Program-made: the position numbers and the translations under genes
The notes under the pieces: model-generated
Seen by the model: the letters and a program-made list of their open reading frames with translations, nothing else
What the model was told of the DNA's origin: nothing
The model's database searches: none
Part shown: positions 4,530-39,306 of the stretch, in pieces
How positions within the stretch are numbered: the first letter of the stretch is position 1
How the letters are laid out: each line of letters starts with the position of its first letter
Assembly: GCA_029260345.1 (NCBI GenBank)
Contig: JAJDDK010000006.1
Span: forward strand, 496,001-560,000
Direction: 5' to 3'
DNA: 64,000 nucleotides
DNA from: Phycisphaerales bacterium
GTDB taxonomy: Bacteria > Planctomycetota > Phycisphaerae > Phycisphaerales > UBA1924

Positions 4530-4547
4530 CACTGCTCAAGAGCAGTG
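4530..4547. repeat. Dispersed palindromic repeat, CACTGCTC family, copy 1
   Basis: A perfect inverted repeat, CACTGCTC-AA-GAGCAGTG, followed by GGCACAC. Closely similar copies occur at 4621, 27310 and 27358. No T-tract follows, so it is not an obvious terminator. Confidence 0.85.
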
Positions 4548-4579
4548 GCACACGTTGTTGAAAGCACCATGAACGGTGG

Positions 4580-4598
4580 GACGGGCGTCTCGCCCGTC
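4580..4598. repeat. Dispersed palindromic repeat, GACGGGCG family, copy 1
   Basis: GACGGGCG-TCT-CGCCCGTC forms an 8-bp stem with a 3-nt loop, inside a longer shared unit that also includes the flanking GGTGG. Related copies lie at 6490-6508 and, inside proS, at 38351-38380. Confidence 0.85.
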
Positions 4599-4620
4599 TG
4601 TCGGGCAATGGCCTTCGAAT

Positions 4621-4638
4621 CACTGCTCAAGAGCGGTG
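4621..4638. repeat. Dispersed palindromic repeat, CACTGCTC family, copy 2
   Basis: CACTGCTCAAGAGCGGTG followed by GGCACAC: one base differs from copy 1, which weakens one arm pair. It lies 38 bp before the small gene at 4676. Confidence 0.8.
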
Positions 4639-4675
4639 GCACACCTATTGCGCGGCACATCTAGAATGGGTCTCG

Positions 4676-6432: not shown

Positions 6433-6489
6433 GGCGGATGGGCTCGATTGACGTCCGCGCACAGCTCGGAGAACTGTGCCACCGGGACG

Positions 6490-6508
6490 AACGGGCGAGA
6501 CGCCCGTT
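6490..6508. repeat. Dispersed palindromic repeat, GACGGGCG family, copy 2
   Basis: AACGGGCG-AGA-CGCCCGTT with the flanking CCACCGCT, in the intergenic space between UXS and UDP-glucose dehydrogenase. It is the same unit as at 4580 in the other orientation. Confidence 0.85.
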
Positions 6509-6538
6509 CCACCGCTTTCTTTCTTTTGGAGCGACGTA

Positions 6539-27309: not shown

Positions 27310-27327
27310 CACTGCTCTTGAGCAGTG
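27310..27327. repeat. Palindromic repeat, CACTGCTC family, copy 3
   Basis: CACTGCTCTTGAGCAGTG preceded by GTGC, inverted relative to copies 1 and 2, between the convergent speE and FG-GAP genes. Confidence 0.85.
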
Positions 27328-27357
27328 ATTCTGCAAAGCAGGTGTACTCAACGGGGA

Positions 27358-27375
27358 CACTGCTCAAGAGCAGTG
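27358..27375. repeat. Palindromic repeat, CACTGCTC family, copy 4
   Basis: CACTGCTCAAGAGCAGTG followed by GGCACACGT, identical over the core to copy 1 and pointing opposite to copy 3, 30 bp away. Confidence 0.85.
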
Positions 27376-27406
27376 GCACACGTCTGCTGAAGTCGGCTGT
27401 TCCGAT

Positions 27407-37452: not shown

Positions 37453-39306
37453 TCAGGCTTCCGTCAGGGCTCGCACGCAGGTGTCGATGACGTCATGCAT
37501 TTTCACGAACTCGCCTTTGCCGGCGTCGCCGCGGTGTTTGTATTCGACGCAGCCTTCGGCGAGGGCTTTGTCGCCGACCGTGAGCCGGATCGGAATGCCG
37601 ATGAGGTCAGCGTCCTTGAACTTCACTCCGGGCCGTTCGTCACGGTCGTCAACGAGCACGTCGATGCCCGCGTGTGAAAGGTCAGTGGCGAGCTGCTCAG
37701 CGGCAGTCATCAACTCCGAACCCGGCTCAATCTTCATGGGCGTGATGAGCACATGGAACGGCGCGATGGCGCCGGGCCAGATGATGCCGTCATCGTCGTG
37801 GCTCATTTCGACACATGCCTGCAGCGTGCGCGACACGCCGATGCCGTAGCAGCCCATGATGACGGGCACGCGATCTTGGTTCGGATCGAGCACATTGAGG
37901 CCCATTGCTTCGGAGTACTTCGTGCCGAGTTTGAAGATGTGCCCGACTTCGATGCCGCGACCTTCTTCGAGGGTGGCGCCCTTGGCTCGCGGCGACGGGT
38001 CCCCCGCCATCGCGTTGCGGACGTCGGCCACCTTTACATAGCTCTGGTTATTCAGGACGTCGCCCATTTCGCGGCGCCAGTTGAAGCGTTTGACGTGGTA
38101 GTCCTTCTCGTCAGCGCCGGTCGCCCAGAACATGGGTTTGCCCTTGGCGGCGTCCATGCCCTGCGCGGCGTCAGGATCGACGATGAGGAGGCAGTCCGTA
38201 CGGCCGACGATCACGCGCGGGCTGACGTAGCCGATGCTGAATCCAGCAGCTTTCGCTTCCGCTTCATCCGCGAGTGCGACGGGTCCACCGGCGGCGGCTT
38301 TGACTTTGCCTTCGTTGACGTCGTGGTCGCCGCGCACGACGGCGAGGATCCAGACAGGCGAGACACCCGCCCCACCGCTGTCGTGTCGTTTGAAAACGAC
38401 GGTCTTGAGCATGTTCGGCGGCTTGACCTTGAGGAACTTCCCTACTTCCTCGATGCCGGGCAGATTCGGCGTGTGAACTTTTTCGAGGTCTCCCGTTGGT
38501 TCGCCATCGAACGACCACGCGCGCTCGCCGGTTTCACACTTTTCGACGTTGGCGGCGTAGCCGGTTTCCGGACAGCGCAGAATGATGTCTTCACCGGCGT
38601 CGCAGTTCACCATGAATTCGTGACTCGCCGAGCCGCCGATGGGGCCGGCTTCAGCTTCGACGCGAGAGAAATCGAGGCCGCAGCGTTTGAAGATGTTGGA
38701 GTATGCGCGATCCATTGCGTCATACGTTTCGCCGAGGCCCCCTTCTCCATCGAGAGTGAGGTGAAACGAGTACGCGTCCTTCATGATGAACTCACGGCCG
38801 CGCAAAAGACCGGAGCGCGGGCGGAACTCATCGCGGAATTTTGTTTGGATTTGGTAGAGCGTGATCGGAAGCTGGCGATAACTCGACACGCCGGATTTCA
38901 TGAGTTCGGTGATGATCTCTTCGTGTGTCGGCGCCAGCGCCGTGATGCGTCCGTGCCGGTCGGTGAGTTTGAAGAGGTTGTCTCCGTAATCGACATCGCG
39001 CTTGGTTTCGGCGAAGAGCTCGATCGGCTCCATTGCGGGCATGAGCATTTCGCTCCCTCCCGCGTCGTTCATCTCTTCGCGCACGATGGCGCAGATCTTC
39101 TGGAGCGTGCGCCACGCCAGCGGAAGGTAGTCGTAAATGCCCGCGCCGACGCGTCGGATGTAGCCCGCGCGGACCAGCAATTTGTGGCTGATCGCCTCGG
39201 CGTCTGCGGGCGGTTCCTTGCTGGTCGGGATGAACGTGCGCGTCCAGCGCTGGATGTCGCCGCGATGGGGCGCCGCGAGGGAATGGGTGTGCGTTTTCGT
39301 GCTCAT
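37453..39306 (-). CDS. proS: Proline--tRNA ligase
   Basis: A 617-residue class II synthetase of the bacterial type with the editing insertion. TSKEPPADAEAISHKLLVRAGYIRRVGAGIYDYLPL, FRDEFRPRSGLLRGREFIMKDAYSFH and GCYGIGVSRTLQA are class II motifs 1-3; the INS editing domain runs from about 225 to 405. The start at 39306 is favoured; a frame to 39357 is longer than usual. Around residues 309-319 the loop SGGAGVSPVW is encoded by a copy of the dispersed GACGGGCG repeat (38351-38380), which looks like an in-frame insertion into the editing domain just before LAVVRGDHDVNE. Confidence 0.96.
   Translation of the reverse strand: MSTKTHTHSLAAPHRGDIQRWTRTFIPTSKEPPADAEAISHKLLVRAGYIRRVGAGIYDYLPLAWRTLQKICAIVREEMNDAGGSEMLMPAMEPIELFAETKRDVDYGDNLFKLTDRHGRITALAPTHEEIITELMKSGVSSYRQLPITLYQIQTKFRDEFRPRSGLLRGREFIMKDAYSFHLTLDGEGGLGETYDAMDRAYSNIFKRCGLDFSRVEAEAGPIGGSASHEFMVNCDAGEDIILRCPETGYAANVEKCETGERAWSFDGEPTGDLEKVHTPNLPGIEEVGKFLKVKPPNMLKTVVFKRHDSGGAGVSPVWILAVVRGDHDVNEGKVKAAAGGPVALADEAEAKAAGFSIGYVSPRVIVGRTDCLLIVDPDAAQGMDAAKGKPMFWATGADEKDYHVKRFNWRREMGDVLNNQSYVKVADVRNAMAGDPSPRAKGATLEEGRGIEVGHIFKLGTKYSEAMGLNVLDPNQDRVPVIMGCYGIGVSRTLQACVEMSHDDDGIIWPGAIAPFHVLITPMKIEPGSELMTAAEQLATDLSHAGIDVLVDDRDERPGVKFKDADLIGIPIRLTVGDKALAEGCVEYKHRGDAGKGEFVKMHDVIDTCVRALTEA
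38351..38380. repeat. GACGGGCG-family repeat inside proS
   Basis: Thirty bases that match the reverse complement of the unit at 4571-4600 at 25 of 30 positions, including the CAGAC start, GGCGAGAC middle and CCCACCG end. The changes keep the proS frame open. Confidence 0.75.

Follow-up and report, generated by a model that had tools for sequence, protein, structure and literature searches.

The spread of REPs is attributed to RAYT transposases that work on single-stranded hairpins. By the definition given in PMC6006769, a REP carries GTAG or GTGG 0-2 nt 5′ of its stem, which is 7-20 nt long and closes a loop of 2-5 nt. Intragenic REPs were reported in 2013 from tRNA synthetase genes of three species, from DNA-repair genes, and, in the PVC bacterium Opitutus terrae, from a large number of genes, along with CGTC families that lack any association with flanking of a RAYT gene (PMC3733652). 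Palindromes in frame within genes of Rickettsia have been known since 2000, and a guanylate kinase containing one has been shown to be active (PMC2229807, PMC3767692).

The locus considered here is proS of a planctomycete of Phycisphaerae. The window is the whole 64-kb stretch of DNA that was analysed, C6:496001-560000 of the organism's own 3.4 Mb genome (G000). Very probably, one segment of proS derives from a short mobile hairpin of REP-like type, now degenerate, which entered a turn of the editing domain, or took the place of part of it, and has been retained.

The repeat unit and its distribution

The original prediction described a 30-base palindromic repeat that is dispersed in the genome and translated within ProS. 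The reverse complement of positions 38351-38380 (CAGCGGTGGGGCGGGTGTCTCGCCTGTCTG) is identical to positions 4571-4600 (GAACGGTGGGACGGGCGTCTCGCCCGTCTG) at 25/30 bases, as had been noted, and the copy at 6490 belongs to the same repeat, with 6488-6517 on the minus strand also matching 4571-4600 at 25/30. Elsewhere in the window nothing scores above 20/30 against 4571-4600, and the best scores in 20 Markov-shuffled windows were 19-21/30. The repeat is real, but its conserved unit is 25 nt, and the flanking bases of the 30-mer lie outside it. The unit consists of a CGGTGG foot followed by the hairpin GACGGGCG-TCT-CGCCCGTC. These bounds come from copies aligned with their flanks, in which CGGTGG is kept, the flanks are not conserved, and the 3′ end is the stem end.

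Dispersal and palindromy are both borne out across the genome. At up to 3 mismatches, the 24-mer GGTGGGACGGGCGTCTCGCCCGTC has 54 matches in G000 (the proS copy among them, with 3 mismatches) and the reversed-pattern control has 0; the core 19-mer is likewise dispersed genome-wide. Among the copies, 35 close the outer end of the stem with G-C, 11 with C-G, and 5 with A-T, and pairing has thus survived base changes. About 32 of the 54 copies were judged to be outside genes or uncertain, and 22 lie in genes.

Nearly all 54 copies have GGTGG immediately 5′ of the stem, the hairpin has an 8-bp stem with a covarying outer pair and a 3-nt loop, and the many copies are mostly between genes. Judged by its sequence, the element fits the published description of REPs. 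It is called REP-like here, a term that names the sequence class and leaves the mobiliser open. Element copies at 4530-4650, 27310-27380, and 6440-6500 of the window are adjoined by other palindromes whose foot resembles GGTGG (CACTGCTC..GAGCAGTG and CACAGTTCTCC..GAGCTGTG), and such a foot seems to be common to several hairpin families.

A phylum survey for the GGTGGGACGGGCGTCTCGCCCGTC family at up to 1 mismatch found it in 0 of 391 other sampled genomes. This is a narrow test, because G013, G051, G047, G003, and others carry the family or its variants at up to 3 mismatches.

Table 1. Features of the window, with positions counted from its first letter
Feature	Position	Strand	Basis or remark
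proS, prolyl-tRNA synthetase, bacterial type, with editing (tRNA_edit) insertion domain	37453..39306	-	Pfam tRNA-synt_2b + tRNA_edit + HGTP_anticodon; PDB ProRS matches 5ucm, 8w8j, 2j3l
tRNA_edit domain of ProS	38155..38472	-	residues 282-387 of 620; PF04073, 50.6 bits
25-nt REP-like element copy in proS (CGGTGGGGCGGGTGTCTCGCCTGTC)	38353..38377	-	22/25 to genome consensus
Hairpin part of the proS copy	38353..38371	-	8-bp stem, TCT loop; 3 stem pairs are G.T wobbles relative to consensus (sequence comparison and folding)
Intergenic consensus copy	4574..4598	+	0 mismatches to 24-mer core unit
Intergenic copy, A-T outer-pair subtype	6490..6514	-	2 mismatches, compensatory

The copy within ProS

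The PDB entries closest to ProS are solved bacterial ProRS structures. Residue numbers refer to a 620-residue translation whose start lies upstream of the ATG at 39306 by three codons. Positions 38353-38376 read GGT GGG GCG GGT GTC TCG CCT GTC, which encodes GGAGVSPV at residues 314-321, inside tRNA_edit. The AlphaFold2 model of ProS has a mean pLDDT of 85.7, with values below 50 at residues 314-317, and presents residues 311-321 as a low-confidence turn between flanking strands 302-310 and 322-328. In this model GGAGVSPV is predicted to occupy a beta-hairpin turn in the editing domain that is disordered. Pfam and the model agree with the earlier placement of an in-frame S-GGAGVSPV-W inside tRNA_edit, in the turn before the VRGDHDVNE strand. 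Compared with PDB 5ucm, ProS has six additional residues at this turn.

The proS copy differs from the consensus at 3 positions, and two of the three changes are synonymous. As DNA, its hairpin is much weaker than that of the consensus (folding energies of −4.4 vs −10.3 kcal/mol), and because of this decay the copy is likely to be old and immobile.

The loop was compared in 30 genomes (the organism's own plus 29 from the same family) and in more from the order. A genome-contig scan for ProS relatives named Phycisphaeraceae and Phycisphaerae, with no closer species. Loop length ranges from 7 to 23 residues, and the loops of relatives include poly-Gly (e.g., L043, L037), KYGEE-type, and simple-repeat ones. 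An insertion of 9-12 residues confined to some members, which the original prediction had anticipated, was not seen in this comparison; at 13 residues the loop is unremarkable, and given the natural variation its length alone is no proof of insertion. Taking 8 codons out leaves 5 residues, below the shortest relative, so part of an existing loop may have been replaced instead of a pure insertion having occurred.

A GC-rich, variable loop, Gly-rich in several relatives, might come to resemble the repeat by chance or convergence. The sequence of the loop argues strongly against this, since it matches the element at 21/24, and none of 34 other ProS loops, poly-Gly ones included, exceeds 16/24. 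A distant bacterium with this loop but without the repeat, which would have told against a mobile origin, did not turn up in this set. The 54 genome matches against none in the control and the occurrence of the same peptide in many other genes of the genome also stand against chance, which is extremely improbable as an explanation and is already largely refuted.

The element-like loop is thus absent from the ProS of the sampled relatives, all from outside the genus, in keeping with the claim that the repeat entered an essential gene in frame and was kept, but this does not separate pure insertion from partial replacement. An insertion or loop replacement in proS is what the sequence comparison suggests, a reading helped by clean insertions of the element in MurD, RdgB, and BioF. 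In relative G009, the same ProS loop holds CCCTCTCCC-CCT-GGGAGAGGGCAGGGTGAGGG, a different palindrome that is dispersed in 17 copies through that genome; one and the same turn has therefore received repeats of two unrelated families in two genera. The ProS of relative G001 (L294, G001:C21:500-2900) has an insertion of tens of residues at this editing-domain loop.

Copies in other genes

The search for further in-gene copies proposed with the original prediction was productive. Codon usage of the 150-nt flanks was scored in all six frames, and this coding call, which is the analysis's own and not curated annotation, places 22 of the 54 copies within some 20 open reading frames. Pfam domains were found in 17 of these: E2 acyltransferase, MmgE/PrpD, DPPIV, SPP1-like portal, Ham1/RdgB, FabA-like, squalene-hopene cyclase, DUF58, terminase, NuoG (two copies), Ada, MurD, BioF, pseudouridine synthase, MetH (an inverted pair), DsbH-type thioredoxin, and ProS. 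Three tandem zinc-ribbon paralogues that bear the element have no Pfam match. Each of them (L110:4062-8631) has the element at the same site, between two cysteine pairs, and the insertion is therefore older than the duplications. In the NuoG-like gene (L011:2-1753, +), the two copies are 162 codons apart and both are in the GGTGVSPV frame.

Alignment to relatives reveals clear lineage-specific insertions in three enzymes, of about 26-30 residues in MurD, about 13 in RdgB, and about 7-9 in BioF. The MurD insertion comprises the element and a second repeat read QSPERKRG; in this MurD-like gene (L016:274-2481, +) the second repeat, CAGAGCCCCGAGCGCAAGCGAGGGGTT, adjoins the element. A similar string, QSPERERG, is found beside the element in L097, and composite insertions therefore occur. 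Relative G003 carries a copy within its own MurD at a different site. The BioF-like gene (L018:1545-3017, −) has a further insertion of ~56 residues, absent from relatives, that is SSQLPLPPGEGRGEG-like twice and derives from two CCCTCTCCC-NNN-GGGAGAGGG palindromes. The element sites in squalene-hopene cyclase and MetH are variable linkers.

Reading register

The element is free of stop codons in all six frames. The 22 in-gene copies are read as GGTGVSPV-like peptides (13), DGRDARPT-like (6), TGETPVPP-like (2), and VGRASRPS (1). One codon register is common to 19 of them (binomial p about 4e-7 against one third), and when the duplicated zinc-ribbon genes are counted once, 17 of 20 share it (p about 3e-6). 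The plain reading of this bias is that selection purged copies whose peptides were less well tolerated; a target-site effect could also produce it.

The favoured register and predominant peptide, together with the retention of G.U pairing in RNA by all three changes of the proS copy, might be taken to mean that genes retain the element for a function, for instance as a hairpin in the mRNA, as a linker in the protein, or as a site of regulation. This is very unlikely. The host genes are unrelated (MurD, RdgB, BioF, NuoG, E2, DPPIV, phage portal, and others), the element sites resemble loops or linkers, and relatives have homologues that lack the element. Selection against other peptides explains the register equally well, and wobble-keeping transitions at three of three positions have about a 1/8 chance, which is not significant as a sign of a conserved mRNA hairpin in proS.

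Tolerated mobile DNA is the preferred explanation of the in-gene copies. A broader view, unlikely although conceivable, is that the family has adapted to in-gene life, with a stop-free hairpin and in-gene copies almost all in one codon register; several palindrome families of unrelated sequence would then have given essential enzymes small loops time and again at shared permissive positions (the ProS editing turn, MurD, BioF) across Phycisphaerae.

Mobilisation and retention

Past movement of the element is well supported. The claim that it moves holds as history; present movement and the responsible enzyme are a separate matter. In the proposed mechanism, a trans-acting HUH transposase of RAYT type would copy the element through a single-stranded hairpin intermediate. 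A hairpin with the conserved GTGG foot, 8-bp stem, and 3-nt loop would have entered the ProS turn or replaced part of it. Selection would remove disruptive insertions, and this copy would have been kept because it offers an open reading frame and a small flexible peptide, GGAGVSPV, at a site where length varies freely. The effect on ProS is probably neutral or near-neutral.

One gene of the genome has the RAYT motifs EHVH, WQ, and YIHANP (C6:148490-149080). REP systems are also recognized by a RAYT gene flanked by repeats; here, no element copy lies within about 4 kb of the gene. Among 61 genomes compared, RAYT presence has no clear relation to element copy number. For both reasons the genome's RAYT is treated as a presumed mobiliser.

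A mobiliser other than a canonical RAYT is possible, if somewhat doubtful. Besides the RAYT, which is without a flanking element copy, the genome encodes several Y1 transposases, including a class-3-like one (NHVH, Y...Q; G000:C2:282112) and an IS200-like TnpA (C5:684044), and an enzyme since lost could also have acted. Class 3 occurs mainly in Planctomycetes, Acidobacteria, and Proteobacteria according to PMC6006769, but the same paper reports these genes with a CnGA foot, not GTGG, and the class-3 Y1 transposase was set aside as a candidate on that account. The class-3-like gene is moreover ~2 kb from the nearest element copy, and the IS200-like gene is adjoined by hairpins of other sequence. 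Near an IS200-like Y1 transposase (L108:7952-8488) are copies of a further hairpin, GGTGGCATGCCCACG..CGTGGGCATG.

Implications

Taken together, the copies form a genome-wide collection of loops inserted naturally into essential enzymes, and one permissive turn has been hit independently by different mobile hairpins. Such a collection makes it possible to ask directly where proteins tolerate mobile DNA and whether the added peptides are neutral. The addition of small loops to working, often essential, proteins by short mobile DNA is a route that is known but little studied. There is also a warning for annotation, in that strings such as GGTGVSPV, DGRDARPT, and TGETPVPP can, in planctomycete proteins, reflect the translation of a repeat and not a conserved motif.

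Comparison with known systems

The closest described systems are the GT[AG]G-tagged REPs, which, according to PMC3733652 and PMC6006769, are likewise short GT[AG]G-footed hairpins with dozens of dispersed copies, stem covariation, and some copies translated in genes. The family with the GGTGGGACGGGCGTCTCGCCCGTC consensus is not named in the consulted passages of either paper. It differs also in its high in-gene share, about 41% by the codon-usage census, and in that no element-flanked RAYT gene was seen in this genome. REPINs, in which two inverted REPs and a short spacer form one unit, have a counterpart in the in-gene inverted pair of MetH (L021), whereas the element copies here are mostly single.

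The Rickettsia palindromic elements (RPEs) resemble the element in being palindromic repeats in frame within conserved protein genes (PMC2229807, PMC3767692), here MurD, RdgB, BioF, ProS, and others. RPEs are reported at about 100-150 bp and belong to Rickettsiales, whereas the present unit is 25 nt and 8 residues in a planctomycete of Phycisphaerae. Sequence and foot differ as well, the short R. conorii RPEs being CGTC-tagged according to PMC3733652. The CCCTCTCCC-NNN-GGGAGAGGG palindromes are similarly dispersed and translated in genes, with two copies in the organism's own BioF and one in the ProS loop of G009, but they are unrelated in sequence and number 17 in G009 against 3 in the present genome by strict pattern.

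A literature search for the element's peptide strings returned nothing bearing on them. In-gene REPs and Rickettsia palindromes are already published, and the element is a new family that provides new cases of a known phenomenon. What stands out is its high in-gene share, its register bias, and the ProS loop that it shares with an unrelated palindrome.
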